Source: Bacillota bacterium (lineage in GTDB: Bacteria > Bacillota > Clostridia > Christensenellales > UBA1242). From it: a DNA stretch of 64,000 nucleotides. The stretch covers positions 62,001 to 126,000 of the forward strand of contig WRCD01000003.1 in NCBI GenBank assembly GCA_009784185.1. Direction: 5' to 3'. Both the position numbers and the translations under genes were made by a program. The notes beneath the pieces were generated by a model. The model did not search any database, had not been told where the DNA came from, and saw only the letters and a list, made by a program, of their open reading frames with translations. Shown here piece after piece: positions 1,021-29,828 of the stretch. How positions within the stretch are numbered: the stretch's first letter is position 1; each line of letters opens with the position of its first letter.

Positions 1021-1033
1021 AGCAGCCTGATTA

Positions 1034-1255: not shown

Positions 1256-1400
1256 CTTTAGGACCTCCTAAATTTTTAATGTAACGTAAACCTGATGGAT
1301 ATGTAAAATCCTTTTACAATGTGTTTTTGGTTTTTCTTTTGTGTTTGTAGAATACACCTACCTTACCATTGTATTCCCTGCTTAAAAAAATGTGTCATTT

Positions 1401-2084: not shown

Positions 2085-2191
2085 ATATCCCTATCCCCCA
2101 AATTGTTTTAGATAGATAAATATATGATGCAATAACCTGCATTAATGATAAAACGACAAAAAAAGGCCGCCCCGCTCCAGTAAATTTGTCT

Positions 2192-2238
2192 GGAGCGCAG
2201 CGACCCTAAATTATTCATTATTCACTATTCATTATTAA
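2192..2238. repeat. Family B repeat: GGAGCG core with heptamer tail
   Basis: The core GGAGCGCAGCGACC is followed by an AT-rich tail that repeats every 7 bp (ATTATTC units with point changes). Related cores occur at 10184, 41269, 44755, 42600 (reverse) and 49180 (reverse). The tail runs up to the stop codon of the GLUG protein. Confidence 0.6.
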
Positions 2239-3420: not shown

Positions 3421-3448
3421 AACTTACCTCCAACTTGTATATCTTGTT

Positions 3449-4317: not shown

Positions 4318-4326
4318 GCCTGTTCC

Positions 4327-11778: not shown

Positions 11779-11795
11779 AAATTTTCTCCTTAATG

Positions 11796-12263: not shown

Positions 12264-12332
12264 GGTTAAACTCCAACGCGTGTATTATGCCCTATTGAGA
12301 ATTATTTTGTCAAACAAAGAAATAATAAAATC

Positions 12333-16695: not shown

Positions 16696-16724
16696 TTGAC
16701 AAGGCTCAAGTTTAATGATATTAT
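16696..16724 (+). promoter_or_regulatory. Promoter of the tRNA operon
   Basis: TTGACA and TATTAT are separated by 17 bp, a strong housekeeping promoter about 100 bp before tRNA-Ala. The leader from 16740 holds an 11-nt copy of the tRNA-Ala 5' end (GGGGGCATAGC at 16743) followed by unrelated sequence. The rest of 16594-16695 shows nothing clear. Confidence 0.8.
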
Positions 16725-16825: not shown

Positions 16826-16902
16826 GGGGGCATAGCTCAGCTGGCTAGAGCGCCTGCCTTGCAAGCAGGAGGTCGTCGGTTCAATTCCGACTGTCTCCAC
16901 CA
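16826..16902 (+). tRNA. tRNA-Ala (UGC)
   Basis: A complete 77-nt cloverleaf. The acceptor stem GGGGGCA pairs with TGTCTCC (with G-U pairs), the D arm is GCTC/GAGC, the anticodon stem CCTGC/GCAGG encloses a loop with TGC, the T arm contains TTCAATT, and CCA is encoded. It is the first gene of the operon read from the promoter at 16696. Confidence 0.95.
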
Positions 16903-16967: not shown

Positions 16968-17007
16968 GGAAGTGTAGCTCAGCTGGTTAGAGCACCACCC
17001 TGATAAG
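16968..17007 (+). pseudogene. 5' half of a split tRNA-Ile (GAU), left attachment site
   Basis: Acceptor strand GGAAGTG, D arm and the 5' anticodon strand CCACC are followed by CTGATAA, after which the tRNA sequence stops and element DNA begins. The missing half, with the matching CACTTCC acceptor strand, lies at 29791-29828. Joining the halves at the shared CTGATAAG gives a perfect 77-nt tRNA-Ile. The gene was therefore cut in its anticodon loop by integration and is no longer functional. Confidence 0.9.
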
Positions 17008-17137
17008 TATATACTATAACATTCAAGTATTACTTAAAAGGGTATCCCAGAGTTCATTTTTACCACATTTTAGACCGATTTTAACTCTCGTGAAAAAATG
17101 TGTAATAAAAATGTGTAATGGTATGTTAAAATGGTGT

Positions 17138-17163
17138 AACTTTTCTAACTTTTGTAGCTTCTC
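17138..17163. repeat. Left arm-type site of the element
   Basis: CTAACTTTTGTAGCTTCTC here is matched in inverted orientation by GAGAAGTTACAAAAGTTA at 29645-29664 near the other end. AATGTGTAAT units are also present at both ends (17097, 17111 and 29613). This is the expected position for integrase arm binding sites; the role is inferred. Confidence 0.55.
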
Positions 17164-17199
17164 CAACATGACAGATGTAAAGTCATAAAAACATAACAT

Positions 17200-17276
17200 A
17201 GGACTGTAGCTCAGCTGGTTAGAGCACCACCCTGATAAGGTGGGGGTCGGTGGTTCGAGTCCACTCAGTCCTACCA
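17200..17276 (+). tRNA. tRNA-Ile (GAU) carried by the element
   Basis: A complete 77-nt tRNA: acceptor AGGACTG/CAGTCCT, D arm GCTC/GAGC, anticodon stem CCACC/GGTGG around CTGATAA (anticodon GAT), T arm with TTCGAGT, and encoded ACCA. It lies inside the element, 192 bp from the left junction. It matches the split host tRNA-Ile exactly in 63 consecutive nucleotides; only the five outer acceptor pairs differ, and all five are compensated. It also contains the CTGATAAG core. It likely replaces the host tRNA that the insertion destroyed, read from the host promoter at 16696. Confidence 0.95.
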
Positions 17277-17304
17277 AAAAAGCCTGTAATTACAGGCTTT
17301 TTTT
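17277..17304 (+). terminator. Terminator after tRNA-Ile
   Basis: A perfect palindrome AAGCCTGTA/TACAGGCTT with a T run follows the tRNA CCA end directly. It closes the tRNA transcript and also separates it from the integrase gene, which is read toward it on the minus strand. Confidence 0.85.
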
Positions 17305-17355
17305 ATTGGTTTTATCAAAAGTTTAAAAATAGTAACTATTACACTTATTACACAT

Positions 17356-18804
17356 TTAATTATTTACTGCTAACTTCCTGCAAAATACTTCGTTAATTTT
17401 AGTTGCTGCTGTTTCATCTGCTTTCTTTAAAGCATGAGAGTATATATCCAAAGTTATAGATGATTTTTTATGTCCTAATCTCTTTGCTATTGTAGTAATA
17501 GGAACACCTGCATTTAATAAAATTGTTGCGTTAGTGTGTCTTAACGAATGGGCAGGAATTTGTCTTAATCCATATTCTAATAAAGATTCTTTAAGCCAAT
17601 GAAAATGTGTGTTTCTTGTTCTTGTTTTTCCATCTGACCTTGTAAATAAATAATTAGTATTAGCCCACAAATCACCATGAAGTTCTTTTTGCTCTAACCA
17701 CCACACACGATATTCTTTTAAAACTTCAACCAATTGTTCTGGCATTGTAATTGTTCTTTTAGAGCTGTCTGTTTTTGGGTCATCGCTTTGTGATTCAAAT
17801 TCTTTACTATAATAATTATATGCTTGCCTAACTGAAAGCTCATTTGTTTCAAAATTTATATCGCACCATTCAAGCCCACAAACTTCTGCACCTCTTAATC
17901 CTAAAAATATCATAATTGAATAAACAGCTTTCTTCCTTATGTCTTTTTCACTCATAATTTTTAGCACAAATTCAGTTGCTTCTTCCTCGTTGAAATAAAC
18001 CATTTCTTTTTTACTGCCTTTTATTGAGTCAGTATAATCTTTTGTGGAATAGTTTTCTTTTATGATTTTCTTCTTTTTAGCATCAGATAAAATCGCAACT
18101 AATATTCTTCTCACACCTGCATTTGTCGCTTTTGCGTATTTACATATTTCTTGCTTATGTTCAAAGTATTTGTTAAATGATAGTTTGAAATGCTTGCAAA
18201 TCTTTTCGGCAACTTCCATACCGACTTGACTGCCTGCTTGCCTTACTAAAAATAAGGTTGTTCTGCTAATGCCACAATCGTTTGAAATATCTTTTACTTT
18301 TAATTTTTTATCTTCAATTATTTTATCAAGTTCAGCTATTTCTTCTTTAACAAAAACAATATTTTTAGTGTAAGTTCTCGTGCAAAGCCAATCATAAAAC
18401 TTTTGAATCATAGTTGGTGTTAAATTTCTAATTAGCAAGTTTGCAGGAAATTCTTTTTTAAATAGTTTTAGAGCTTCTTTTGCTCTTATGTAATAGTTAA
18501 ATCCACTTGGATTTTTGATTAGTATTCTTTCAGCCCATTCTTCTGCATACTCAATAAACTTTACATTTTCATTTATAATTTTGACTACAATGCCTTTTGA
18601 AGCTTCTTCAACATAATCTTCATATTCTCTCATAGCTTTTTTCTTTGCGTTTTTAATAGCTTCGTTATCGTTTAAAATTTCAATAGGTATTTTCCATACT
18701 TTTGAATAAAGTTTATGTGCTTGCGTTTCAGGGTCTTTGCCATTGACAAAGAACCTGAAAGCATAAACATTACCTTTGGAGTTTTTTCTTTTTACTGCGT
18801 GCAT
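17356..18804 (-). CDS. int: Tyrosine-family site-specific integrase with inserted HTH
   Basis: A 482-residue tyrosine recombinase. The catalytic residues are all present: R304 (LGLRGAEV), H419 and R422 (HSLRHT), H445 (LGHKKSS) and the nucleophile Y455 (DIYSHAL). The N-terminal ~70 residues are the arm-binding domain and residues ~80-150 begin the core-binding domain. Residues ~158-215 look like an XRE-type helix-turn-helix (VKDISNDCGISRTTL, then a KICKHFKLSFNKYFE tail) lodged inside the core-binding domain, which makes the protein about 90 residues longer than usual. It lies next to the left attachment site, as expected. It should cut at the CTGATAAG core in tRNA-Ile. An AGAGGG site precedes the ATG. 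Confidence 0.95.
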   Translation of the reverse strand: MHAVKRKNSKGNVYAFRFFVNGKDPETQAHKLYSKVWKIPIEILNDNEAIKNAKKKAMREYEDYVEEASKGIVVKIINENVKFIEYAEEWAERILIKNPSGFNYYIRAKEALKLFKKEFPANLLIRNLTPTMIQKFYDWLCTRTYTKNIVFVKEEIAELDKIIEDKKLKVKDISNDCGISRTTLFLVRQAGSQVGMEVAEKICKHFKLSFNKYFEHKQEICKYAKATNAGVRRILVAILSDAKKKKIIKENYSTKDYTDSIKGSKKEMVYFNEEEATEFVLKIMSEKDIRKKAVYSIMIFLGLRGAEVCGLEWCDINFETNELSVRQAYNYYSKEFESQSDDPKTDSSKRTITMPEQLVEVLKEYRVWWLEQKELHGDLWANTNYLFTRSDGKTRTRNTHFHWLKESLLEYGLRQIPAHSLRHTNATILLNAGVPITTIAKRLGHKKSSITLDIYSHALKKADETAATKINEVFCRKLAVNN

Positions 18805-18815
18805 AATTTTCCCTC

Positions 18816-19010
18816 TTACATTTCATTTAGATATCGAAGTAAATCATCGTAATTAACTAAAATCTTGTTTCCGCTTTTAAAATGCTTTACTTCTTTTTTG
18901 TTGCATAACTCACGAATAAATCATTCGGTTATACAAGTCTGTGGGTCAAGTTCTTTTATTGCTTTCAAACTTTCGCCAACAGTTTTTCTACGAGCAACTT
19001 TATCTTGCAT
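18816..19010 (-). pseudogene. xis: Excisionase gene with in-frame TGA in place of Trp
   Basis: From ATG at 19010, behind a perfect AAGGAGGTAAAGAA site, the frame reads 64 codons to TAA at 18816 but has TGA at 18921-18923 (codon 30). The translation has the form of small MerR-like excisionases of integrative elements: a conserved basic N-terminus, CITE-stop-FIRELC, then a HFKSGNKILVNYDDLLRYL segment. In such proteins I would expect Trp at the stop position (TEWFIR), one base from TGG. TGA is used as a normal stop elsewhere in this genome, so this is most likely a nonsense mutation that disables excision. The gene overlaps nothing and sits 11 bp before int, in the usual xis-int order. Confidence 0.75.
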
Positions 19011-19076
19011 TTCTTTACCTCCTTTTTTTCTGCGATAATTACTAATACACTTGCAGAAAGTAAGGTTTTAATTATT

Positions 19077-19105
19077 TTGACAAAATACAAATTTGCTTGT
19101 ATAAT
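19077..19105 (+). promoter_or_regulatory. Consensus promoter for the regulator at 19155
   Basis: A perfect TTGACA and a perfect TATAAT with 17 bp between them. It drives the + strand gene starting at 19155 and is divergent from xis-int; regulation of both directions from this 140-bp gap is likely. Confidence 0.85.
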
Positions 19106-19154
19106 AGGATTATATTACACATTTAAAAAATCGTAAACTGTGGGGGTAAAAATT

Positions 19155-19820
19155 ATGAGTTCGTTTGCAAAGGCATTGAGGAAGATAATAAATGACAACA
19201 ATATAAAACAAGTGGCATTAGCAAAAGCCATTGGAAAAACGGTGAACGCAGTCAATTCTTGGGTTACTGAAACAGAAGATTTAGAAACAAGACCACAATG
19301 GCATGATGAAGTTCAAAACCTCATGAAATTTCTTTATGCAAACGCAAAAGATTTTTACCCGTGCGAGCTTTTTGGAATTGATAGAAATGAATATGAAAAT
19401 GCAGTTTTAGAAAATGCTATGAATAACGCAAAAGCATTTATTGAACAAGAAAAAACAAATCTTGCAAAGAGAGATAAGGCTTTAATTTATGAAGAAATAA
19501 AAAGAGGTAAACAACAGCTTGAAAAAGAATATAAACAAAAACTTGCTGAACACAAAAAACTAATTGAACAAGAGCTTAAAGAAAAATATCATGTTGAAAT
19601 GCTTGAATTTTTAAAAACTAATGAAGTAAAAAATGACAAACTATTTTATAGATATATTGACTTAGTAAAAGACCCTGAATTTATGCAGTTGTTAATAAAT
19701 ATAAAAGAAGGTGCGAAATTTCCAAGTGGCTTATCATGGTATTACAAACTAACAAAACTTAGCGAAGAAGAATCACTAAGGCTTGCAAAAATAATAAATA
19801 GATATTTAAGAGCAAGTTAA
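19155..19820 (+). CDS. XRE-type regulator with long coiled coil
   Basis: A 221-residue protein if started at ATG 19155; a GTG at 19140 would add five residues, but GGGGGT lies at ribosome-binding distance from the ATG. Residues 1-45 form a helix-turn-helix of the XRE type (VALAKAIGKTVNAVNSWV). Residues ~85-160 are a charged coiled coil (EQEKTNLAKRDKALIYEEIKR region). The C-terminal ~55 residues are helical. It has the position of a phage-type repressor: divergent from xis-int and behind a consensus promoter. It probably controls lysogeny-like maintenance of the element. It ends 4 bp inside the end of the convergent gene at 19817. Confidence 0.75.
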   Translation: MSSFAKALRKIINDNNIKQVALAKAIGKTVNAVNSWVTETEDLETRPQWHDEVQNLMKFLYANAKDFYPCELFGIDRNEYENAVLENAMNNAKAFIEQEKTNLAKRDKALIYEEIKRGKQQLEKEYKQKLAEHKKLIEQELKEKYHVEMLEFLKTNEVKNDKLFYRYIDLVKDPEFMQLLINIKEGAKFPSGLSWYYKLTKLSEEESLRLAKIINRYLRAS

Positions 19821-20089
19821 ACCGAGCCACCAAGTTCAATTTTTCTTTTATCAATTAAATATGTAATTGCTGACATTAAATCCCAGTCAATAGGCGAAGA
19901 AGATTTATTAGTAATAGCAACAATAAAATCTCGTAAATTTTGCAACCCTGTGAGTTTCATTTTTTCAAGTTCAAAAACTCTATTGATGAGTTTTATTTCT
20001 CGTTCTTCTAAAACACCTCGTGCAATATCTCTATTGTTCCTGTAATGGCCTTTAACTTCCATATACATTTGAAAATTAGTCTTTATCAT
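19817..20089 (-). CDS. Unknown small protein (90 aa)
   Basis: A 90-residue, mostly helical charged protein. It overlaps the next upstream gene by 14 bp, so it belongs to the same minus-strand operon that starts with the small HTH protein at 20476. No domain was recognised. Its end overlaps the convergent repressor-like gene by 4 bp. Composition is AT-rich like the rest of the element. Confidence 0.55.
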   Translation of the reverse strand: MIKTNFQMYMEVKGHYRNNRDIARGVLEEREIKLINRVFELEKMKLTGLQNLRDFIVAITNKSSSPIDWDLMSAITYLIDKRKIELGGSV

Positions 20090-20270
20090 TTAACACCTCG
20101 TTTAAAACTTTTTTAATTTCTTTCTTTTGACTCTGTGTCATTTTGATTCTGTAAGGCAATACGATTTTGCAATTACAATTATCGCAACACCTCGCCTTTG
20201 GGTTACAGTTTACCGGTGCAGGATTATTTCCATATTTGCCACAGTCCTTTTTGCATAAACAACATTTCAT
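20076..20270 (-). CDS. Small zinc-finger-like phage protein (64 aa)
   Basis: A 64-residue protein with nine Cys in its first 34 residues: MKCCLCKKDCG, then YGNNPAPV, then RCCDNCNCK, then a basic helical tail. The pattern (CCLC, YGNNPxPV, RCCDxCN) is one I associate with small proteins of clostridial phages and mobile elements, where the Cys pairs would bind zinc. The role is unknown. It overlaps its neighbours on both sides by 4-14 bp, which shows cotranscription. Confidence 0.65.
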   Translation of the reverse strand: MKCCLCKKDCGKYGNNPAPVNCNPKARCCDNCNCKIVLPYRIKMTQSQKKEIKKVLNEVLNDKD

Positions 20271-20476
20271 TTCTTTTCCTCCAACCCTAAAAGATAATCA
20301 CAACTAACTTTTAACTTCTTGCAAATTTTATATAAATGATTAGCTCTTGGTTTTGATTTATCACTTAACCAATTATTCAGCCGATACTCGCTTATGCTTA
20401 TAAGCTTTGCAAATTGCTCGTTAGTTAGGTTGTGTTCTGCTATGGTTTCAGTTAATCGTTCAATAAATAATTTCAT
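20267..20476 (-). CDS. XRE-family regulator
   Basis: From ATG at 20476 this gives 69 residues (MKLFIERLTETIAE to LGLEEKK), the size of a minimal XRE repressor: helix-turn-helix FAKLISISEYRLNNWLSDKSKPR and a C-terminal CDYLLGLE, as in many phage Cro/CI-like proteins. A longer frame from 20554 exists but has no start signal. There is no Shine-Dalgarno site; TATAAT lies exactly six bases before the ATG, so the mRNA is probably leaderless. It heads the 20476-19817 operon. Confidence 0.8.
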   Translation of the reverse strand: MKLFIERLTETIAEHNLTNEQFAKLISISEYRLNNWLSDKSKPRANHLYKICKKLKVSCDYLLGLEEKK

Positions 20477-20637
20477 GGTTTTATTATAAATAGTTTGATT
20501 TTTAAAGGACATAGTTTTGAGCAACTTTGCAGAAAAAAAGCTCTGCCTAAGCAAAGCTTTTGAGGGGAAATGCTATTAACAATTTTGTTTAACAACTGAC
20601 ACATGAGCCAATTCGTGCTACAACTAATTTAGTCTAT

Positions 20638-20985
20638 TTAGTTCCTGAATATCATCGGCCAGAAATTTATAGCATATTTTCTTGTTGGGTGTTTTATAAC
20701 AATGTTTGCCACATACTGAACAAGAAAATCGTTATCTCTATTTTCTAAAATGAAAGCAAGCATATCAACATTAAAAGAATCAGGTGCAATTCTTTTAATT
20801 GTGTTCGGCAAGATAATTCCTAAAACTTGATTAGCACAAGACTCATCAAAAACATTACTTGCTATTTCGGTCACGCAGTTAGGCACTTGCACGCAGTAAC
20901 CAATCCAACCCAAACCCTCTTTACCTTTGCTATAAATTACTTTTGTTAAAACATTATTTTTAATTTTTAAATGATACATAAGCAT
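20638..20985 (-). CDS. Unknown protein with a BspA-like leucine-rich segment
   Basis: A 115-residue protein. Residues ~33-70 contain VPNCVTEIASNVF and LPNTIKRIAPDSF, which fit the LRR_5/BspA-type repeat (x-P-x-x-V/I-x-x-I-x-x-x-A/S-F). With only two units it is far shorter than typical BspA proteins. There is no signal peptide, so it acts in the cytoplasm if expressed. The ATG overlaps the end of the upstream 56-residue gene by one base. Function unknown; it may be a protein-protein adaptor. Confidence 0.55.
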   Translation of the reverse strand: MLMYHLKIKNNVLTKVIYSKGKEGLGWIGYCVQVPNCVTEIASNVFDESCANQVLGIILPNTIKRIAPDSFNVDMLAFILENRDNDFLVQYVANIVIKHPTRKYAINFWPMIFRN

Positions 20986-21155
20986 TAACCATTAAAGCTC
21001 TTATATAAATTGCTTATAAATTTTCTTAATGCTTTTGGGTCTTTTTGCTTTACAATGCTTAAAAACTTTTCTCGTATTTGTTTGTCTAAATCGTCCATTA
21101 TTTCATTCATTAAAACATCTACCAAAGCAGTATCAAATGTTTCTACTTCTTCCAT
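20985..21155 (-). CDS. Unknown small acidic protein (56 aa)
   Basis: The start is taken at ATG 21155 because a GGAGGTATATC site lies directly upstream; a longer frame to 21197 has no such signal. The 56 residues (MEEVETFDTALVDVL onward) are mostly helical with charged faces. No family was recognised. It is coupled by a one-base overlap to the next gene. Such small helical proteins are common in phage control regions. Confidence 0.5.
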   Translation of the reverse strand: MEEVETFDTALVDVLMNEIMDDLDKQIREKFLSIVKQKDPKALRKFISNLYKSFNG

Positions 21156-21186
21156 GATATACCTCCATGTTTGGATTATATATCGC

Positions 21187-21211
21187 AAAAAAACCAAAGG
21201 ACACCCTTTGG
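21187..21211 (-). terminator. Terminator of the membrane zinc-ribbon gene
   Basis: CCAAAGG/CCTTTGG stem with ACAC loop, followed on the minus strand by seven T. It lies 30 bp after the stop of the 353-residue gene. Confidence 0.8.
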
Positions 21212-21241
21212 CAAAAAATTTGGAAAAAAGTTTTTTAAGCT

Positions 21242-22303
21242 TTATTCAGGTTTCATAATTGCTTTGCCACAATGATAACAATGTATTGATTCGCCTTTAT
21301 TCTTCCCACCACATTGACCACAATAAACATGAGGTAAATCTTTTTTAACTTCGTTGTAGTTTTCAATGTTAATAGTTACTTGTGTTTTTTCGTTTTCAGG
21401 TGCATTAGGCAAATCTTCAATATTAGTCCAACTATATTCACATTGAGGACATTTGCGAGTTAGTTCGTATTCGTGGTGTGTTCGTTTTAGAGTGTATATT
21501 GCCATTAGTTCAATTTTGCCTGTTTTCTCGTAGTATTCTTTAATGTGTTCAGTATTAACAACTTCATATTTAGGTTTATACTTTCCATCAGTCAAGCCAC
21601 CCCAACCAGTATCATCAAATCGTTGAGCATAGCTTGCAGGTTGTTTAATTGTTTTATTGTCATAGTGAGTGCGTATAAATTTTTTATCTAAAACTTCAAT
21701 ATGTTCCTTTCCACACTTAATGCAAGTATCGTATAAATTTTGATTAGTGCTTGCAAGATTCTTTTTGCTCTTACTACCTATAACTGCCATTTGAAACCAT
21801 AGAAAAGGCAACACTAACCAACCAACAATAGAGGCATAGAATATCCAAATTGTTTTCTTAAATTTTGCGTTTTCGCTTGGCATTTCTTTATATAGTTTTG
21901 ATTGTAAAAACCATTCTTTTTGTTGTGCAGTTCGTTCAACTTCCATAATGCTTTGAGTATTCTTTTCAAGAATTCTAAATATGTGCCAAACCATTGTGCC
22001 AAAAATAGGTGGGCAGAAAGCAAGCCATAAACCGACTTTGCTTTTACTCTTGTTCTGTTCATTTTTTGGTTGAGCATTTTTCAGTTGTTTCTTTTTCAAA
22101 AATATTATGACAGAAACATAACAAATTATAAAAACAAAAGTAACAGGCAAAACAATTGAGAGATAAGTAACAGGATTCATCCAATACCACCCACCATGTT
22201 CTATTTTCTCAAAAGAAGGCCATACCATTAAACCAGCAAAACATAGCAAAAGAATTATCGGTAACACATAAATTAGAAACTTCTTTTTACCACTCATAAA
22301 CAC
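21242..22303 (-). CDS. Membrane protein with zinc-ribbon motifs
   Basis: A 353-residue protein. Two N-terminal helices (about residues 8-27 and 40-66) and two more around residues 90-107 and 150-172 place it in the membrane. The soluble C-terminal half has paired Cys: CIKC (~195), CPQC (~290) and, at the end, YCGQCGG plus HCYHCGK, which is a classical zinc ribbon. Similar membrane/zinc-ribbon proteins occur as uncharacterised cargo in clostridial elements. It has its own terminator and an AGAGGTG site before ATG, and it diverges from an XRE gene at 22457. Function unknown. Confidence 0.65.
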   Translation of the reverse strand: MFMSGKKKFLIYVLPIILLLCFAGLMVWPSFEKIEHGGWYWMNPVTYLSIVLPVTFVFIICYVSVIIFLKKKQLKNAQPKNEQNKSKSKVGLWLAFCPPIFGTMVWHIFRILEKNTQSIMEVERTAQQKEWFLQSKLYKEMPSENAKFKKTIWIFYASIVGWLVLPFLWFQMAVIGSKSKKNLASTNQNLYDTCIKCGKEHIEVLDKKFIRTHYDNKTIKQPASYAQRFDDTGWGGLTDGKYKPKYEVVNTEHIKEYYEKTGKIELMAIYTLKRTHHEYELTRKCPQCEYSWTNIEDLPNAPENEKTQVTINIENYNEVKKDLPHVYCGQCGGKNKGESIHCYHCGKAIMKPE

Positions 22304-22330
22304 CTCTTTTTTTAAGTATAATACATGGTT

Positions 22331-22347
22331 TGTCGAAGTGTGTCGAA
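22331..22347. promoter_or_regulatory. Direct repeat, candidate operator
   Basis: TGTCGAA occurs twice, 10 bp apart, one helical turn, between the divergent membrane-protein and XRE genes. It overlaps the promoter region of the minus-strand gene (TATTAT at about 22321). It is a reasonable site for the XRE protein encoded next to it; this is inference from position. Confidence 0.45.
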
Positions 22348-22456
22348 AACAATGTATTTGATATTTTTTATTCTATCAAAAAAATCATTAAAAGTAAATT
22401 AGATTTCCTACACAGGTAGGCTTATTGCAGTAGGCGTAAAATAGTAAAATATATGT

Positions 22457-22729
22457 GTGAAAGAAGAAAAGACTAAAACATTAACGCAAGCAGTAGCTGA
22501 ACGAATTAGAGAACTGTTGCACCAAAGCAATATGACTCAGTATAAGTTTGAACAAGTCAGCGGTATCTCGCATGGCCATTTAGGCCATATTCTTTATGGT
22601 CGCAAAAGTGGAAGTAATAAAACAATGTCATTCACAACAGTAGTGTTAATTGCCAAAGGCTTTAACATGACATTGGCACAATTTTTAGACAGCCCAATTT
22701 TTGATTACAGTAACTTTGACATTGAATAA
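22457..22729 (+). CDS. XRE-family regulator (90 aa)
   Basis: A 90-residue protein starting with GTG at 22457. Residues ~10-65 form an XRE helix-turn-helix (MTQYKFEQVSGISHGHLGHIL, with GRKSG after it), and the rest is a short acidic tail. No Shine-Dalgarno site is visible; TAAAAT ends six bases before the GTG, as in other probable leaderless genes here. It is divergent from the zinc-ribbon membrane gene, with TGTCGAA repeats between them. It could control that gene or the restriction system that follows on the other strand. Confidence 0.75.
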   Translation: MKEEKTKTLTQAVAERIRELLHQSNMTQYKFEQVSGISHGHLGHILYGRKSGSNKTMSFTTVVLIAKGFNMTLAQFLDSPIFDYSNFDIE

Positions 22730-22832
22730 TTTTTATATATCATTTGGAGTCATAGGGTTAACCATGTTAAACGAAAATAGTTAAGTTATAGAAACTTATT
22801 AGGTTAATGTTTAAATTAAAATAGAGTAAAGA

Positions 22833-22858
22833 AAAAGTGGCTTTGACCACTTTTGTTT
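22833..22858 (-). terminator. Terminator of the restriction-modification operon
   Basis: AAAAGTGG/CCACTTTT stem with a 6-nt loop and flanking T/A runs, just after the stop of the specificity gene. Confidence 0.8.
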
Positions 22859-22861
22859 TAC

Positions 22862-23797
22862 TTAAACTAAATCTGCATAAGGTAATGATTTTATGTAATT
22901 TTCCATGTATAACCAATCTGGCTTTTTATCTTTATCAACAGGCAATTTCAAAATGGTGTTTCGTATTTTAATTTGATTAGATTTTCTACCATAAGAATAT
23001 CTATAACATTCTTGGTTGAATAGTGTTACAAAAAATAAAGCGATATATTTTGTCATATTAAATTTAGGTGTAAGTTTTTCAACATGGTCGCTGGCAGAAA
23101 AATCTTCTTCCTGATAAGCACACGAACCCAACACAGCACTATCAATAGTTAAAACATTTCCTTTCTCGGTTGAGAAATTATAAAATCCTTCAATGCCATT
23201 GTTTCCAGCTTGTGTAGTTACATAAGGATATTTGCCTTTTCCATAGTTTTGCAAATCTTCTATTTTGGTTGTTTTTGTTCCAGTTACTTTAAATAAATCA
23301 TTCACTAAAAACTCTTCCCATTGGGTTGTATTAGTATCTAAAATTTGTTTATTTATTTTTGAATTTACTTTTTCAACTTTGTATGCACCAATTACTTTGT
23401 TACATTCTTCCAAACTCGGCAAATCAATCTCTGGTAATGTTTTATTCGCCGCTCTTCCATAGCTGTAACGATAAGCATTTTGATTTATAACCATTGCATA
23501 AAAAAGTTTCTGCTCAAACGACAGTTCAATTTTTGGAGTTAGAACATACAAATCTCTTCCACTATAATAAGGCTCTAATTGAACAAAAGTAGAGAGAACA
23601 GAGCCACTTGTTGCACAGCTTAAAGTTCCTGCTTTTTGTGGCTCAACTCCATCAATTAGTTTCACTCTTGCTACAACACCATTGTTTTGACTTGTTCTTG
23701 CTACAAAATTTATGCCATCAGGTGCAGTAGTTTCTTCGCAACGCATTAGTTCTAAATTGACACCATATTTTAAATCAAACAAATCTTTAACTTTCAT
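22862..23797 (-). CDS. BcgI-like specificity subunit (two target recognition domains)
   Basis: A 311-residue DNA-specificity protein from ATG 23797 (a GTG-preceded longer start at 23809 is possible). It has two target recognition domains: residues ~1-150 and ~165-311, each ending in a shared YRYSYGR segment followed by a short helix-forming strand. The C-terminal DWLYMENYIKSLPY is typical of specificity units of BcgI-type and type IIG systems. It overlaps the methylase-nuclease gene by 11 bp. Size and order match the B subunit of BcgI (about 340 residues). Each domain should read half of a bipartite DNA target. Its sequence gives no direct clue to the target. Confidence 0.85.
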   Translation of the reverse strand: MKVKDLFDLKYGVNLELMRCEETTAPDGINFVARTSQNNGVVARVKLIDGVEPQKAGTLSCATSGSVLSTFVQLEPYYSGRDLYVLTPKIELSFEQKLFYAMVINQNAYRYSYGRAANKTLPEIDLPSLEECNKVIGAYKVEKVNSKINKQILDTNTTQWEEFLVNDLFKVTGTKTTKIEDLQNYGKGKYPYVTTQAGNNGIEGFYNFSTEKGNVLTIDSAVLGSCAYQEEDFSASDHVEKLTPKFNMTKYIALFFVTLFNQECYRYSYGRKSNQIKIRNTILKLPVDKDKKPDWLYMENYIKSLPYADLV

Positions 23798-25652
23798 TGT
23801 TGCCACCATTCTTGACTAAATATGCCAAATAATCTCGCACAGTTTGTTCAAAGTTATTTTGTGTTATTTTAGAATAATCAGTTTTCATGTATGCTTCACA
23901 AAGCCATTCATCATCAGCAGTTACACATTGAAGAGCAGATTTACCATCTACAACTTTTTTCCCTTCGTATAAATCTAACCATTCTTTTTTAATATCGTCC
24001 CATCTGTTAAAGTAATCAATTCTACCCATCTTCTTTCTTTTCACAAATCCATCATCTTTGCAATATCCAAAGAAAGTAGGTTTTGTTGAATCATGTGGTT
24101 TATGTGCTTCCCAAACCATTACACAAACATTCACACCAGTTGGATAAAAAATATCATCAGGCATACTGAACACTGCTTTTAGAGTATGGTTTTTAAATAG
24201 CTTTTGGCGAATCTCTTTAAACTTTGTTCCAATGGCACAGCTCATTGGAACAACTGCAACAGCTAATCCCCTTGGCACAAGATAATTTAATAATTGCTCA
24301 ACAAATTCTAATTCGCTTTTATCTTCTTGTGCATAGGGTGGGTTAATAAGTCCTAATGATAATTGTTTGCTTTCTAGCTCTTTTTTTGTAGCAGCACTAA
24401 AACAATCTCCATGAATAATATTTGATTTTCCATCTTTACGAATAATCATATTTGTAATTGCAAGAGTGTATAAATCTATATCCAACTCAACACCATAAAG
24501 ACTAGTCTTTTTAATATTTTCAATTTCTGTTGCATTAGCTTCTTTGCACATTTTGGCCATAGCAGTAATAAGGAACGATGCCGAGCCACAGCAAATGTCA
24601 ATTACTTTACTGTTCTTATTTACTTCGCCTAAATCACACATAAATTCTGTTAAATGTTTGGGTGTTAACACTATGCCGAGACCTTTACCATCACCACCAC
24701 TATATTTAATAAACTCATGGTAGAAAATGCTAAGTGCATCTTCTGTGTATTCATAGTGATTCATCATTGGCAAAATTCTCATTTCTAATTGCTCAATAAA
24801 CCATGCAAGAGAACCACTCTCGCCAAGTGGTAATGCTTTTAGTTTCTCATTTGTTTTAACTTTTCTAAAAGAAGTTTTAATGCTGTCAATTTTCTCTCGC
24901 CTAATATTACTGTTATCCAATACCTGTTCAATAGAACCAATTAAAGTATCTACCAATGGTTTAAATGTTTTTATATCGTTCCATGTATTTCTAAAATCTG
25001 CATTCTGCAAACCAATTAAAATACCTGCTATAAAAATTGGTTTGTCTTTTTCAGAAATTTTAATTTGTCTTAATTTTTCGTGCATGATTAAAGACATTTC
25101 TCTAATTTCTTGTAGGGAGAATTTTCTTTCAAGCTTCTTTCCATTAGCAAGATTTAAATAGTTTAAAGGCTCTAATATAGTATCTTTTGCTTTCTTCAAT
25201 TCTTGTGGAGTTTCAAAACCTTTTTTCCAATAAAAAGTATTAACTTTAACATTGTCTTTTGTAGTGCCACTTACTGCAACAGCCAAAACATTATAATCTT
25301 CTTTTAAATGTTTTGCATAAAACAAAGCACCATCAACAGCATACTTTTGTGGCATATTCATTGTAGGACTAATATGTTCTTTTGTTGATCTTTTGCACTC
25401 AATCAATAAGATTGTGCTTTTGTCTTCGCTAAAAGTTGCAATATATTCTGGCTTTGCTTTTCCATTTCCAACTGTATCGTAATCTTCAATGTTACAAATA
25501 ACAGGCTTTCCACCCATAGCTCTTAACTTTGTTGTAATAGTGTCAAAGCCACTTTTTATGTCGCCTTGTGGGAATATGTAACCAAACTCGTTTTCGCCGA
25601 GCTGAACACCCATTTCTTTTAAAACAAATTCTTCGGTATATCTTTCGCTCAT
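23787..25652 (-). CDS. BcgI-like restriction nuclease / N6-adenine methyltransferase
   Basis: A 621-residue fusion. Residues ~1-150 form a PD-(D/E)XK-type nuclease domain: KPEY at 68-70 and IECK at 84-87 (E69, E85, K87). A helical linker follows. Residues ~300-600 are a gamma-class N6-adenine methyltransferase with TPKHLTEFM (~330), motif I IDICCGSASFL (351-361) and the catalytic NPPY (437-440). Motif I has CCGSAS rather than the more common PACGSG. The layout and length match the A subunit of BcgI (type IIB), which cuts on both sides of its site and needs the separate specificity subunit encoded downstream. It protects the element's host from phage and may stabilise the element by post-segregational killing. 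Its ATG overlaps the stop of the RHH gene. Confidence 0.88.
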   Translation of the reverse strand: MSERYTEEFVLKEMGVQLGENEFGYIFPQGDIKSGFDTITTKLRAMGGKPVICNIEDYDTVGNGKAKPEYIATFSEDKSTILLIECKRSTKEHISPTMNMPQKYAVDGALFYAKHLKEDYNVLAVAVSGTTKDNVKVNTFYWKKGFETPQELKKAKDTILEPLNYLNLANGKKLERKFSLQEIREMSLIMHEKLRQIKISEKDKPIFIAGILIGLQNADFRNTWNDIKTFKPLVDTLIGSIEQVLDNSNIRREKIDSIKTSFRKVKTNEKLKALPLGESGSLAWFIEQLEMRILPMMNHYEYTEDALSIFYHEFIKYSGGDGKGLGIVLTPKHLTEFMCDLGEVNKNSKVIDICCGSASFLITAMAKMCKEANATEIENIKKTSLYGVELDIDLYTLAITNMIIRKDGKSNIIHGDCFSAATKKELESKQLSLGLINPPYAQEDKSELEFVEQLLNYLVPRGLAVAVVPMSCAIGTKFKEIRQKLFKNHTLKAVFSMPDDIFYPTGVNVCVMVWEAHKPHDSTKPTFFGYCKDDGFVKRKKMGRIDYFNRWDDIKKEWLDLYEGKKVVDGKSALQCVTADDEWLCEAYMKTDYSKITQNNFEQTVRDYLAYLVKNGGNNES

Positions 25653-25810
25653 TTGTTACCCCCTAAATCTTTTTCTATCAATTCGTTAATGTATGAGTTT
25701 ATGCTTTTTCGTTTTCTAAACTGCTTTAATTTTTCTTGCATTTTGTCATACAAAGCAGGGGTCATTCTAACTGTAAAAGACTCTTTATCTTTTTCAATTT
25801 TTTGTTTCAT
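25649..25810 (-). CDS. Ribbon-helix-helix regulator of the R-M operon (53 aa)
   Basis: A 53-residue protein from ATG 25810 with a GAGGTAG site. KESFTVRMTPALYDKM is the beta strand and first helix of a ribbon-helix-helix DNA-binding fold, and SINSYINELIEKDL is the second helix. Its TGA stop overlaps the methylase start (ATGA), so it is the first gene of the restriction-modification operon. A palindrome TATGAT-n3-ATCATA lies between its -10 box and ribosome binding site. It is probably an autorepressor that sets R-M expression, in place of the usual HTH controller protein. Confidence 0.8.
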   Translation of the reverse strand: MKQKIEKDKESFTVRMTPALYDKMQEKLKQFRKRKSINSYINELIEKDLGGNK

Positions 25811-25823
25811 ATTGCTACCTCAA

Positions 25824-25848
25824 TATGATACCATCATACCACTTTATA
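25824..25848 (-). promoter_or_regulatory. Palindromic operator and -10 box before the R-M operon
   Basis: A perfect 6-3-6 palindrome (TATGAT, ATCATA) at 25824-25838 lies just downstream of TATAAA (minus strand, 25843-25848). A protein bound here would block transcription start. The RHH protein encoded 14 bp away is the natural candidate. Confidence 0.6.
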
Positions 25849-25958
25849 TTTTTTAAAACAAACAAAATTTGACAAGTTTTTACAAAGTTATAGTTTATAT
25901 TAAACAATCAATTTCCATTGAATAGGGTTGACCCTGTGAATCCTAAATGAATGTTTTG

Positions 25959-26498
25959 TTACTCATTTAACAAATCAAATATACTTATCTTTTTTTCGTG
26001 TTCCTCAAACCAAGTTTCAACTACACGATTTTTAGAATCGTATTTAGTGCATTTTAAAAGATAACGATTTTTTGTTAATAACAAATCTTCTCGTGGTATG
26101 TTGTCGCATAATTTAAATTGTTTTTGGTCGTTCTCAAAGGCAGTAAGATAATCTTCTGCCGATGATAATTCTTTTATTTCTGCATTTTTAATGTGTTGCT
26201 TTAAAAGTTCAATATTTTTGCTTGCGTTTTCTTTTGCTTTAAAAGCAATAAAGATTTTTCCAAACCAGTCGTGCCTGTCTGTATTATACAGCCAAGCACG
26301 CAGTTCGCAGTCTTTAAACTTTTCTTTTAATTTACTTACACAGTCGTTCAATAAAACTAAATTGAGATTAGTAGTTGTGCAAGCACCTTGTTTGTTATAC
26401 CAATAATAATTGAACTTAAAACTTATCAAATAATATGATTCAAAAGTTTCAGTTTCAAATATGCTTTTTACTTCTTCTTTTTCAATTCTCATTTTCAA
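25959..26498 (-). CDS. Unknown element protein (179 aa)
   Basis: A 179-residue soluble protein, mixed alpha/beta, with a Tyr/Trp-rich stretch at residues ~20-40 (SYYLISFKFNYYWYNKQG) and a helical middle. No family was recognised. It follows the winged-helix gene by 12 bp on the same strand, so it belongs to the replication operon. It could assist replication or partition; nothing proves it. Confidence 0.55.
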   Translation of the reverse strand: MKMRIEKEEVKSIFETETFESYYLISFKFNYYWYNKQGACTTTNLNLVLLNDCVSKLKEKFKDCELRAWLYNTDRHDWFGKIFIAFKAKENASKNIELLKQHIKNAEIKELSSAEDYLTAFENDQKQFKLCDNIPREDLLLTKNRYLLKCTKYDSKNRVVETWFEEHEKKISIFDLLNE

Positions 26499-26510
26499 TT
26501 TTCCTTTCTT

Positions 26511-26840
26511 CTAAAATGGTATGTCATCTTCGTTTATCGGTTGTGGTGCTTGTTTAGAAATTTGCAGTTTATCTAAATGCACTTTAATTTGTCGCCACTT
26601 GCTTTTTGGTTTAAGAATTTCAAAAATGCCTAACTTCCTCAACCATTCTTTTGACCTATCAAATGTGCTTTGTGATATGTTTCCTATTGGCAATAGTTCA
26701 TTAGAATTCGCCCAACAATAGCCCCAATCGTTTTGTGTATAAGAATATACTTTTGCAAGAATAATGAGGTCGGTTGGAGAAAGTCTTTTGTCAGCTTGCC
26801 ATTCGTTTGGAATCCAAACGCCTTTTTCTTTTACTTTCAT
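26511..26840 (-). CDS. Winged-helix replication protein (HTH_36-like)
   Basis: A 109-residue protein whose residues ~5-85 fit the winged-helix domain of phage and plasmid replication initiators (GVWIPNEWQADKRLSPTDLIILAKVYSY... within that span, then the recognition helix QSTFDRSKEWLRKLGIFEI). The C-terminal tail DDIPF resembles the acidic tip found on single-stranded DNA-binding proteins. It lies beside iteron-like repeats (26859-27048) and the SF3 helicase gene, so it probably binds the origin and recruits the helicase. An AAGGAAGTAACA-like site precedes the ATG. Confidence 0.7.
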   Translation of the reverse strand: MKVKEKGVWIPNEWQADKRLSPTDLIILAKVYSYTQNDWGYCWANSNELLPIGNISQSTFDRSKEWLRKLGIFEILKPKSKWRQIKVHLDKLQISKQAPQPINEDDIPF

Positions 26841-26858
26841 TGTTACTTCCTTTTACTG

Positions 26859-27048
26859 AGTCAATTTGACTTAGTGTTAATGTTTTATTTTAATTTTTTA
26901 TTTTCTTCTAAAAATGCCTCCACTCATAACTACTCAAATCTTTAAATTGTTACTTAGTCAATTTGAGTAGGTTCTGGTGTGGTATATTTATATTATCTTA
27001 TGGTATATAAGCATAGTCATTTTGACTTACTTAAAAGCCATTTTGATT
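26859..27048. repeat. Iteron-like repeats, candidate replication origin of the element
   Basis: Four copies of a 13-bp near-palindrome: AGTCAATTTGACT at 26859, AGTCAATTTGAGT at 26956, AGTCATTTTGACT at 27015 and AGCCATTTTGATT at 27036. The last two are spaced 21 bp (two helical turns). Very AT-rich DNA lies between them. A fifth similar copy is at 29039 inside a gene. The gap lies between a winged-helix gene and an SF3 helicase gene, the usual place for a plasmid or phage origin. Confidence 0.65.
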
Positions 27049-28090
27049 AAGTAAAGCTAAACACTTCAAGAGCTTTATCGTTAAATGGTAAATACTTATC
27101 TATCAAGCTCCAAACCTTATCAAAGTTATCTTTATTAAATGCTTTGAAACCATGCTCTTTACAATACTTCGCATAATCTTCATAATCTCTCTCGCCACAT
27201 TTAGAAACAGGGCTTTCAGCTAATAATTTTTTAATTGTCATAACCTCTAAATCTTTAATAGCTTGTTTGTTAAATTTAACTTTTTTAAGTTGATAAATGA
27301 GCTTGCCAATTTCCTCTGCATTGTTTATGTATTTTTCTCTAAACTCATCGTAATCGCATGGTAGTTCCATTTTCTTATCAAAATAGAATATGACAAACCT
27401 ACGCAATACACCCTCATCAGTAATATCAAGTATTAAAGGATTATTAGTGCAGAAAACAAAGTTTGCCTCGTTCCTGCATTGAATAGGCCTAATAAACTTT
27501 CGTTCCATGCTTATTTTTCCACCTGTTGCCATTGACTTGATTAGACCAACCATATCGCCAAAACTTTCTCGCCCTAAATCATCGCCACCAACAAACAATT
27601 TTCCAATTACTTCGCCCAAATTAAACCTGTTTGATAATTGTTTAACTGTTAACGAAACACTATAATTTTGAAACAAGTTTTTTAGTATATCTATAAGCTG
27701 TGATTTTCCTGCCTCTGCAATTCCATGAAACACATAAATCTTTTCGCTTTTGTGCATTACAATATCGTAAATCACTTGTTCCCAGTCAATTTGAGGATAT
27801 TGTTTTTTTAGCCAATTCAAAATATATGATTCGCCCTCAATGGCAGGAATTGAATTTATAAAAACTTCTCTCGGGTTTTTATCTTCACATTTGTTATGTT
27901 CACAAATGGTTTCTTCAAACCTATCTAAATTGTTTGGTTGGTATCTGCCAACCTTTAATGCAATTATATCTCGCATTTTTTGTCTGCTTACAAGCTCGTA
28001 TTTGCTGTTATAGAAAAAGCCATTATAAAACTTGAATGGTTTATGTTCAGCAAGCATTGTGCAAACATCATCAACTGTTGGTTTTGCCAT
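27047..28090 (-). CDS. SF3-type (DUF5906-like) replicative helicase
   Basis: A 347-residue superfamily 3 helicase. Walker A is GIAEAGKS (residues 123-130), Walker B is LFVGGDDLG (~170), and sensor 1 is the FCTNNP segment (~215), with an Arg finger region DEGVLRRF after it. The N-terminal ~100 residues and the C-terminal ~80 residues are specific to phage/plasmid primase-helicases of the DUF5906 group; the primase part found in P4-like proteins is absent. It should unwind the origin as a hexamer. The stop codon overlaps the last iteron-like repeat. It follows the 103-residue gene by 2 bp. Confidence 0.85.
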   Translation of the reverse strand: MAKPTVDDVCTMLAEHKPFKFYNGFFYNSKYELVSRQKMRDIIALKVGRYQPNNLDRFEETICEHNKCEDKNPREVFINSIPAIEGESYILNWLKKQYPQIDWEQVIYDIVMHKSEKIYVFHGIAEAGKSQLIDILKNLFQNYSVSLTVKQLSNRFNLGEVIGKLFVGGDDLGRESFGDMVGLIKSMATGGKISMERKFIRPIQCRNEANFVFCTNNPLILDITDEGVLRRFVIFYFDKKMELPCDYDEFREKYINNAEEIGKLIYQLKKVKFNKQAIKDLEVMTIKKLLAESPVSKCGERDYEDYAKYCKEHGFKAFNKDNFDKVWSLIDKYLPFNDKALEVFSFT

Positions 28091-28092
28091 TT

Positions 28093-28404
28093 TTAGTTTT
28101 CCTCCTTTGGTTTATTTTCGTATTCAGTTTCAACAAACTGTCCGTCAATGTCATAAAAATCACAGCGGTTATAATGTTCGGTTGTGTAATTAAAAATGAT
28201 ATGTGTAATCCCACAATCTCTAAAATGTGTGCTTAAAATTCCTTTTATAATCCACGAATTTGCTCCGACTGAATTACCAAAGCAAATTAAATCGCCAGCA
28301 TTATCATACAAGTCGTGTAAGGCTTTATTTGCCTCGTTATAAAAACTTACCGTAAAAAATGGAACTTTTGGCAGTTTTTCTCTTTTAATTTTTGTTTCTT
28401 TCAT
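28093..28404 (-). CDS. Unknown element protein (103 aa)
   Basis: The start is set at ATG 28404 because AAGGAGAA lies 9 bp upstream; a longer frame to 28446 lacks such a site. The 103 residues are mixed alpha/beta with no known motif. The middle (LICFGNSVGANSWIIKGIL) suggests a Rossmann-like or nucleotide-binding turn, though this is weak. It precedes the SF3 helicase gene by 2 bp and is surely cotranscribed with it. Confidence 0.55.
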   Translation of the reverse strand: MKETKIKREKLPKVPFFTVSFYNEANKALHDLYDNAGDLICFGNSVGANSWIIKGILSTHFRDCGITHIIFNYTTEHYNRCDFYDIDGQFVETEYENKPKEEN

Positions 28405-28439
28405 TTTAAAATTCTCCTTATTTTTTGCCCTCTTGGGGC

Positions 28440-28471
28440 AGGCCACTTAATTACAAATTTTTAAGTGGCCT
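28440..28471. other. Perfect inverted repeat between operon genes
   Basis: AGGCCACTTAA and TTAAGTGGCCT (11-bp stem) flank a 10-nt AT loop, followed on the + strand by GTTTTTG. A second small hairpin (GCCC/GGGC) sits at 28428. Both lie between two minus-strand genes. It may be a terminator for + strand transcripts or an attenuator. Confidence 0.5.
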
Positions 28472-28478
28472 GTTTTTG

Positions 28479-29138
28479 TTAACATGGAAAGCCATCATCA
28501 TCGAAGTTTGGAATATATCTTTTTTCTTCTACTTCTTTGTTTTCGCTTTCTTCAAAATCAATAACTTCAATTTCTTCGCTTTCAGTTAACGAGTGAATAG
28601 GTTTATATTCATCACTAACAATTTCAGCTTTAACAAGCTCTTTCAATTCGCTAATGCTTTCAGTTTCAAATTCAATAAAATCAAAAGCCTCTTTTAATGC
28701 CGAGAAATTTCTATTAGAACTTACCGACATATCAATATTAAATTGTTCTAAAATATCTTTAAAGAATGGCGATTTTGGTAATACGAATAAAACATACAAA
28801 TCTATTTGCTGAAACTTCGGTTTGAAGTTGCCATTATATTTTGAAAAATCTTTTTCAACTGCCCAACGCACATATTTAAACCTGTGTGGAATGTGATAGA
28901 GAGCAGAAATCAATTTATCAAAGTTTCTAATACTTTGCTCCACTCGTTGATTATAGAAACTAAACTTAACGAGTTTTATTGATTCGCTTTCACTTTTAAA
29001 TGGTGTGAAACCATATTTGTTTTTAGAGTGTGTTACCGAGTCATTTTGACAATGTGTTAACCACTCTTTTTTAATTACTTCAAATAAATTATTCATTTTC
29101 TTTTTCCTTTTAATAATTTTTGATTTTTTCTTAACCAA
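28479..29138 (-). CDS. Unknown replication-region protein (219 aa), TTG start
   Basis: The best start is TTG at 29138, because a perfect AAGGAGG lies 6 bp upstream; an internal ATG at 29096 with AAAGGAAA is the alternative and a longer frame to 29282 has no signals. The product begins with a very basic stretch (KKKSKIIKRKKKM), then a soluble domain (residues ~15-150) with a Trp/Tyr-rich beta pattern, and ends with a long acidic tail (residues ~165-219). It is the first gene of the replication operon. No family was recognised; a DNA-binding or initiator role is only a guess from position and charge. Confidence 0.6.
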   Translation of the reverse strand: MVKKKSKIIKRKKKMNNLFEVIKKEWLTHCQNDSVTHSKNKYGFTPFKSESESIKLVKFSFYNQRVEQSIRNFDKLISALYHIPHRFKYVRWAVEKDFSKYNGNFKPKFQQIDLYVLFVLPKSPFFKDILEQFNIDMSVSSNRNFSALKEAFDFIEFETESISELKELVKAEIVSDEYKPIHSLTESEEIEVIDFEESENKEVEEKRYIPNFDDDGFPC

Positions 29139-29248
29139 GCAAAACCTCCTTATTTTTTGCTCTATAATGCTATACACTTGCAAAAAATATGTTTTAGAAA
29201 AATAATTGAAACTACTGTTTTGCTTGTATGAGTTAAATTTACATAAAA

Positions 29249-29279
29249 AAATTGACCCAAGTGAATCGTGGGTCAATTT
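29249..29279. other. Perfect 11-bp stem palindrome upstream of the replication operon
   Basis: AAATTGACCCA and TGGGTCAATTT enclose a 9-nt loop. A run of seven T follows on the minus strand, so it can act as a terminator in that direction, but no minus-strand gene ends here. It shares TTGAC with the iteron-like repeats. It may be a regulatory or origin structure. Confidence 0.5.
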
Positions 29280-29310
29280 CAATAAAAATTTAATATATCT
29301 ATTAAGTAAA

Positions 29311-29339
29311 TTTACAGAGATAAAGTTTTATGATATAAT
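29311..29339 (+). promoter_or_regulatory. Promoter with start site at the ATG (leaderless)
   Basis: TTTACA, 17-bp spacer, TATAAT. Transcription should begin at about 29346, the A of the ATG, so the mRNA would have no leader. Confidence 0.75.
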
Positions 29340-29345
29340 TTGAAC

Positions 29346-29612
29346 ATGGAAAAAGAAGTTAAAAAGCATACCTTTCTCACACCTGATGGTGCAGAGGTAA
29401 AATATACCTTATTAGAAGTAGATGACCTTGCCAATAATCCAAACACAAGAGAGCTTGGCTTATATTACTTATCACAATGGTTTGACTTAAAAGGCAGACC
29501 TCACAGAGATAGAGAAGATAAAGATATGAGCAAAAGATTTAATAGTTTAGTGGAAAAAGGTTTAATTGATAAGCATGGCAATATACTGCCCACTAAAAAA
29601 AGCAAAAAATAA
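29346..29612 (+). CDS. Small unknown element protein (88 aa), leaderless
   Basis: An 88-residue charged protein from ATG 29346 at the right end of the element. TATAAT ends six bases before the ATG and there is no Shine-Dalgarno site. Residues ~40-80 (LGLYYLSQWFDLKGRPHRDREDKDM in part) look like a helical DNA- or protein-binding domain. It is one of three + strand genes in the element; the others are regulators. It may be a control or maintenance protein; no family was recognised. Confidence 0.6.
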   Translation: MEKEVKKHTFLTPDGAEVKYTLLEVDDLANNPNTRELGLYYLSQWFDLKGRPHRDREDKDMSKRFNSLVEKGLIDKHGNILPTKKSKK

Positions 29613-29642
29613 AATGTGTAATGAAAAAATGTAATACAAACT

Positions 29643-29665
29643 TAGAGAAGTTACAAAAGTTATAG
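29643..29665. repeat. Right arm-type site of the element
   Basis: GAGAAGTTACAAAAGTTA is the inverted counterpart of the left arm at 17138-17163. It lies 120 bp inside the right junction. The stretch 29613-29783 has no gene. Confidence 0.55.
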
Positions 29666-29783
29666 ACACTACAAAACTTATGTGATATACTGAACTTACA
29701 GATTTGAACACACAACCTACACGAGTTATAAAACCTATTAGCTTTATAGAAGTAAAAAAAGTTAAAACGGGATTTAATTATAA

Positions 29784-29828
29784 CTGATAAGGTGGGGGTC
29801 GGTGGTTCGAGTCCACTCACTTCCACCA
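29784..29828 (+). pseudogene. 3' half of the split tRNA-Ile, right attachment site
   Basis: The core CTGATAAG is followed by the 3' anticodon strand GGTGG, the variable loop, the T arm and CACTTCC-ACCA. The acceptor strand pairs exactly with GGAAGTG at 16968. The sequence before the core is element DNA that cannot form the 5' half, so this half is orphaned. The original operon terminator (AAACTGC/GCGGTTT with T run) follows at 29833-29855. Confidence 0.9.

Follow-up and report, generated by a model that had tools for sequence, protein, structure and literature searches.

An integrative element that very probably splits the sole tRNA-Ile(GAU) gene of its host and supplies a substitute

In a 64,000-nucleotide stretch from a Bacillota bacterium of the UBA1242 lineage (GCA_009784185.1, contig WRCD01000003.1, positions 62,001 to 126,000; this whole stretch is called the window below), a tRNA-Ile(GAU) gene is split in its anticodon loop by an element of 12.8 kb, at window positions 16968-29828. 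Very likely, this integrative element split the only tRNA-Ile(GAU) gene of its host and replaced it with a copy of its own, in what would be a general system in its family of uncultured Clostridia. Fused at the crossover core CTGATAAG, the two halves yield a tRNA-Ile(GAU) that passes ARAGORN, and a complete tRNA-Ile(GAU) lies inside the element. The features that carry this reading are the following.

16696..16724, forward strand: promoter-like site TTGACA-N17-TATTAT before tRNA-Ala/tRNA-Ile (11/12 matches)
16826..16902, forward strand: host tRNA-Ala(UGC), first of the tRNA pair (ARAGORN, Rfam)
16968..17007, forward strand: broken 5' half of host tRNA-Ile(GAU), acceptor GGAAGTG (sequence; joins with 29784-29828)
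17000..17007, forward strand: left copy of the 8-nt crossover core CTGATAAG (sequence)
17008..17199, forward strand: 192-bp spacer with putative arm-type repeats AAAATGTGTAAT at 17095 and 17108 (10-mers in common with the right end)
17168..17186, forward strand: hairpin ATGAC-AGATGTAAA-GTCAT in the leader of the replacement tRNA (the motif recurs before tRNA-Ile across the family)
17200..17276, forward strand: complete replacement tRNA-Ile(GAU), acceptor AGGACTG (ARAGORN; Rfam, 70.8 bits)
17276..17303, forward strand: intrinsic terminator behind the replacement tRNA (sequence)
17356..18804, reverse strand: tyrosine integrase, 482 aa, with an inserted helix-turn-helix (HTH), convergent with the tRNA (PF00589, PF13443; PHROG integrase)
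29611..29634, forward strand: putative right-end arm-type repeats AAAATGTGTAAT / AAAAATGTAAT (10-mers in common with the left end)
29784..29791, forward strand: right copy of the crossover core CTGATAAG (sequence)
29784..29828, forward strand: broken 3' half of host tRNA-Ile(GAU), acceptor CACTTCC (sequence; joins with the 5' half)

The split gene and the tRNA inside the element

The 5' half reads GGAAGTG...CCACC CTGATAAG and ends in the core, with which the 3' half, CTGATAAG GTGG...CACTTCC ACCA, begins. This 8-nt core is the only sequence common to the two halves. Neither end of the element encodes a full tRNA, and the host gene is not rebuilt from sequence of the attachment site (attP), whose junction is predicted to be TTTAATTATAA-CTGATAAG-TATATACTATAAC. 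An earlier sequence-only reading of this DNA had described both the cut in the anticodon loop and the lack of restoration, and our analysis agrees with it on both. The two ends of the element have 11 10-mers in common, against 0.55 expected from shuffles, and the AAAATGTGTAAT repeats at both ends are as expected for putative arm-type sites. Both junctions, where by its own account an assembly break would have told against the sequence-only reading, are internal to one 134 kb contig.

The replacement tRNA sits 192 bp inside the element in the orientation of the host tRNA, to which, once the halves are joined, it is identical over positions 6-68 (63 consecutive nt), as had been noticed from the sequence. 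The acceptor stems differ at pairs 1, 3 and 5, and pairs 2 and 4 are unchanged. The earlier count of five differing pairs was therefore too high, while its remark that every change is compensated by the partner base applies to all three. The AGGACTG tRNA is matched most closely, with one base different, by a tRNA-Ile that neighbours a tRNA-Ala in G022, from another genus of the family; this suggests that the element may have captured its tRNA from a relative. The genome (1.16 Mb, 93.9% complete) contains a single full-length match to tRNA-Ile(GAU), the inner one, and a search of this assembly for another returned none; this count had been proposed as a check.

The only forward promoter-like site precedes the tRNA-Ala, with none on the forward strand of the 192-bp spacer, and a terminator follows the inner tRNA. 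Judging by these signals, transcription of the inner tRNA probably starts at the host tRNA-Ala/Ile promoter, in line with the sequence-only reading. The leader hairpin has the general form GAC-AGNTGN(N)AAA-GTC, with a variable stem and a conserved loop, and lies 15-25 nt upstream of tRNA-Ile. It occurs in elements of both groups described below and before tRNA-Ile genes without a broken half (at window 17168-17186 and in L041, L042, L049, L051, L056 and L057). An Rfam search of the leader region returned tRNA only, plus matches judged to be chance. The Rfam match to the antisense RNA HPnc0260 (window 17238-17371, minus strand) overlaps the tRNA and the terminator, scores barely above the gathering score and is probably also due to chance.

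We propose that the tyrosine integrase acts on the anticodon loop of the host tRNA-Ile(GAU), recombining it with the 8-bp core CTGATAAG of attP. Because attP would carry no tRNA 3' half, the host gene would be split and lost. Transcription from the host promoter would then probably run through the broken 5' half into the carried tRNA-Ile, which would take the place of the lost tRNA. We infer that the cell transcribes, processes and charges the inner tRNA and, from its single-copy status, depends on it, which would stabilise the element. A clade of related integrases (group I) would act in this way at seven anticodons, and an unrelated group (group II) at tRNA-Ile.

Related elements and successive takeovers

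We examined a family set of 309 genomes in 42 genera and found relatives of the window integrase in 71 of them. The in-family integrases group together as one clade (support 100/99), and the target isotype switches repeatedly within it, covering Thr(GGU), Thr(CGU), Arg(ACG), Arg(CCU), Arg(UCU), Lys(CUU) and Ile(GAU). The layout of these group I loci is near-universal: a broken 5' half that stops in the anticodon loop, then about 115-230 bp of spacer, a complete tRNA and a convergent integrase gene. An automated test detected the broken half in 34 of 38 in-family loci, and inspection by eye in 36; one of the remaining two is cut at a contig end and the other (L085) has the core only. Among nine out-of-family relatives of the integrase, the automated test gave one chance match and inspection by eye no broken half. 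These adjoin intact tRNAs, so tRNA replacement is not a trait of every relative of the integrase.

Ten of 20 extended group I loci had an acceptor-matched 3' half 4-16 kb away that joins with the 5' half into a valid tRNA. With eight tRNA-Ile elements these make 18 complete cases, with halves 4-18 kb apart, and in all 18 the joined halves form an intact tRNA with the anticodon of the carried tRNA. As these cases were picked because their two ends lay on the same contig, the acceptor-match controls (one match in reversed sequence, 0.45 expected in shuffles and 3/62 for decoy acceptors) cover false matches and not prevalence.

Group II elements have spacers of about 60 bp, an integrase of about 444 aa with about 30% identity to the window integrase over about 200 residues, and an 84-aa Xis-like protein. 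Most of them also have a MobL relaxase, which we found in L239, with homologues in five other elements. Since the two integrase groups are unrelated, tRNA replacement either arose at least twice or its tRNA module passed between the groups; the leader hairpin common to group I and group II tRNA-Ile units would fit such a transfer. In group II spacers of types 3, 4 and 5 (for example L239, L156 and L251) and in L269, the replacement tRNA is separated from the broken 5' half by a segment resembling a T-arm and acceptor. This segment may be what is left of the 3' half in an ancestral attP of the restoring kind. The cargo of group II includes candidate defence genes. In L239 (G089), positions 710-4708 and 11025-12923 match candidate defence families, namely an AAA helicase like MkoA and PDC-S56.

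For tRNA-Ile alone, we searched for a tRNA 5' half followed after 52-82 nt by the D-arm of the next tRNA. This pattern occurred in 65 of the 309 genomes and 13 of the 42 genera. Among GTDB species it was found in uncultured Clostridia and in metagenome-assembled genomes of Christensenella, e.g., Candidatus Onthoplasma and Caccopulliclostridium. In some genomes, several 5' halves in tandem precede a single full tRNA: G019 has two, G087 three and G270 five or six. The 76 distinct units sort into spacer types, within which the outgoing acceptor (that of the broken half) is mixed. The incoming acceptor (that of the full tRNA) is a single one in most spacer types, distributed as follows.

Type 1a: AGAGATG, 14/20
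Type 1c: TGGATTG, 4/4
Type 2: TGGCTTG, 12/12
Type 3: AGGATTG, 19/19
Type 4: TGGCTTG, 4/4

Over 71 units, the mutual information between spacer type and incoming acceptor was 1.61 bits (permutation mean 0.34, p 2e-4), whereas for the outgoing acceptor it was 0.65 (permutation mean 0.50). As the spacer type predicts the incoming and hardly the outgoing acceptor, spacer and tRNA behave as one mobile unit.

Each replacement tRNA holds the same target, so new elements could enter it in turn and produce nested arrays. In such arrays, the first downstream 3' half is expected to match the innermost 5' half. This order was found on single contigs in the window and in G145, G139, G076, G181, G296, G089 and G087, and was consistent across contigs in G030, G016 and G017. 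We read these arrays as the work of newcomers that insert into the tRNA of the previous element and leave nested 5'-half fossils. In 12 of 14 genomes checked, the replacement was the sole full-length match to tRNA-Ile(GAU); the exceptions were G087, with two matches, and G270, where the contig breaks inside the tRNA.

Other tRNA-Ile remnants were also present. A damaged chimeric tRNA-Ile in L103 (around position 1017; G012 C7) combines a 5' AGAGATG with a 3' CAATCCT acceptor strand and is possibly a recombination scar. In L106 (around 7013 and 15196) and L244 (around 18791), a 3' half stands behind cttgacgggcggtt-ATAAGGTGG, in two cases about 190 bp after a full tRNA-Ile with the same acceptor. 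These are candidates for a different, shorter insertion or its remnant.

Points of doubt and alternative readings

Several observations weigh against the replacement of host tRNAs by these elements, in the window or as a general system. The case is built from sequence. The sequence-only reading had suggested a search for an empty site with an intact GGAAGTG acceptor, and we found none in the 309 family genomes, in which the GGAAGTG acceptor is confined to the window genome; nor did a second genome of the window genus turn up in the searches made. At 94% completeness, the window assembly may have missed a second tRNA-Ile. For nine of the 20 extended group I loci no 3' half could be verified, and G094, whose halves join into an invalid tRNA, was not counted. 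The nesting order fails in G088, where the outer half alone matches, and L238 yielded no inner 3' half where one was expected. Finally, L085 (G208) has the core CTCCTAAG upstream of tRNA-Arg(CCU) without a tRNA 5' half, perhaps as a secondary attachment site.

The alternative that fares best concerns the route to this arrangement and leads to the same end state. The element may once have been a conventional restoring integrator that gained a whole tRNA, after which the tRNA half in its attP decayed; we give this a roughly even chance. It would account for the T-arm/acceptor-like segment retained in group II spacers (types 3, 4 and 5) and in the group I element of G145, and for the intact tRNAs beside the out-of-family integrases. 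No such segment is visible in the window spacer, however.

Another proposal is that the acceptor change is itself selected, by preventing pairing or recombination of the host half with the carried tRNA, or by blocking rival elements from rebuilding a tRNA with the wrong acceptor strand. The acceptors of tRNA-Ile vary widely among genera, while the tRNA body and the acceptor of the neighbouring tRNA-Ala are near-constant, and every change in the window is compensated. Against this, the acceptor was kept in 23 of 71 successions, above the 14 expected if the acceptors before and after were independent, and in Arg and Thr elements the entire tRNA can differ between host and carried copy. We therefore consider selection on the acceptor unlikely. 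The same 23 successions rule out an acceptor change as a requirement at tRNA-Ile: it marks the type of element that brings the tRNA but is not required.

The window could also be explained by two tandem host tRNA-Ile genes, the upstream of which was entered by an ordinary element, so that the inner tRNA never belonged to the element. The short distance from the start of the broken half to the start of the replacement tRNA, 232 bp, would suit this view. We rejected it as highly improbable, because the spacer type predicts the downstream and not the upstream acceptor, the spacer has repeats in common with the far end of the element, and the same layout stands beside related integrases at six further tRNA anticodons. 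Moreover, the inner tRNA lies between both crossover cores, so that excision would take it out.

An assembly or binning artefact is the least probable explanation, to the point of being negligible: metagenome-type assemblies often break at such repeats and the contigs of several relatives end there, but the 134 kb contig spans both junctions of the window, and the matched halves in 18 elements from many assemblies exclude both chance and assembly error.

Gene content, significance and comparison with known systems

Replacement of the host tRNA by the element remains our preferred reading. Besides the integrase, in which a Cro/C1-type HTH stands between the core-binding and catalytic domains, the window element encodes the following.

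19140..19820, forward strand: possible transcription regulator (weak PHROG match)
20267..20554, reverse strand: Cro/C1-type HTH repressor-like protein (Pfam, PHROG)
22457..22729, forward strand: HTH protein (PF13443)
22862..23809, reverse strand: restriction-modification specificity subunit (PF01420; PADLOC Specificity_II)
23787..25652, reverse strand: type IIG-like restriction-modification methyltransferase (PF02384; PADLOC REase_MTase_IIG)
26511..26840, reverse strand: replication initiation-like protein (weak PHROG matches)
27047..28090, reverse strand: primase/helicase-like protein, DUF5906 (PF19263; PHROG DNA primase)

Among the window open reading frames scanned against Pfam and PHROGs, none matched phage structural or packaging genes and no relaxase was recognised. 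Searches of IMG/VR with the architecture pattern and with the integrase gave no relative, and megablast of the element against phage records gave no meaningful match. Compared with plasmids, the integrase matched distant integrases alone, all with <60% identity.

Whether single-copy essential tRNA genes are owned by mobile elements in these small-genome gut Clostridia is a wider proposition on which we are evenly divided. It would mean that two unrelated groups seize tRNA-Ile, Thr, Arg and Lys genes, that newcomers overwrite the previous owner, and that the tRNA set turns over as an addiction device anchoring elements with defence genes. tRNA genes usually count as passive docking sites for mobile DNA and as more conserved than any other part of a genome. 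Here, docking would destroy an essential tRNA, the guest would supply the substitute and the next guest would repeat the process. If confirmed, the tRNA-Ile and other tRNAs of the family have been supplied in turn by elements, with the order of arrival kept in fossil halves. This makes testable a question left open by a 2024 phage study (PMC10865867), namely by which route restoring integration gives rise to the tRNA-dependent kind. It would also represent a natural addiction mechanism without a toxin, and is a caution that tRNA trees and annotation pipelines may be misled.

Phage-inducible chromosomal islands (PICIs) are phage satellites with an integrase, a repressor-like HTH protein, replication/primase genes and defence cargo, and without capsid genes. 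At about 13 kb, the window element resembles them in each of these respects, with no capsid genes found; unlike in PICIs, no packaging or interference module was recognised in it. The MobL integrative mobilizable elements of group II have the same tRNA-Ile site and outcome, and contain an integrase, an Xis-like protein and a MobL relaxase. The window element differs from them in having no recognised relaxase and only a distant integrase (about 30% identity over about 200 residues).

Islander-type islands (PMC4383910) are like the window element in their tyrosine integrase, crossover in a tRNA gene and tRNA fragments at the ends, but they restore the target from island sequence, whereas the window element restores nothing. 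In phage-related sequences of Sinorhizobium meliloti, an inactivated host tRNA is replaced by a carried isoacceptor, and a diversification of tRNA genes was suggested (PMC11476347). That case is alphaproteobacterial and phage-related, and the passages concerned do not describe nested succession.

The closest parallel is tRNA-dependent lysogeny in actinophages, described and tested by Guerrero-Bustamante and Hatfull in 2024 (PMC10865867). In Fionnbharth, LeBron, Gaia and other phages, with cores of 8-17 bp, the targets are Lys-TTT, Ile2-CAT and Leu-CAA, and mutants were made for key cases; the authors raised the speculative possibility of the carried tRNA serving a second element as bacterial attachment site (attB). 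Both systems have a tyrosine integrase acting at a host tRNA, a short core, no restoration, a carried tRNA of the same isotype and putative arm-type sites flanking attP, and in both the disrupted tRNA is the sole one of its kind (in the window, in a 93.9%-complete genome). Unlike these temperate actinophages, the elements described here are non-phage or mobilizable, occur in uncultured Clostridia, target Ile-GAU, Thr, Arg and Lys tRNAs, leave nested fossils and are known from sequence alone. In the literature searched, which left subscription papers mostly outside, we saw neither nested successions nor family-wide turnover reported, nor any non-phage elements acting in this way. The principle is already published; what is new is its scale and recursion, in a non-phage and strongly recurrent variant.

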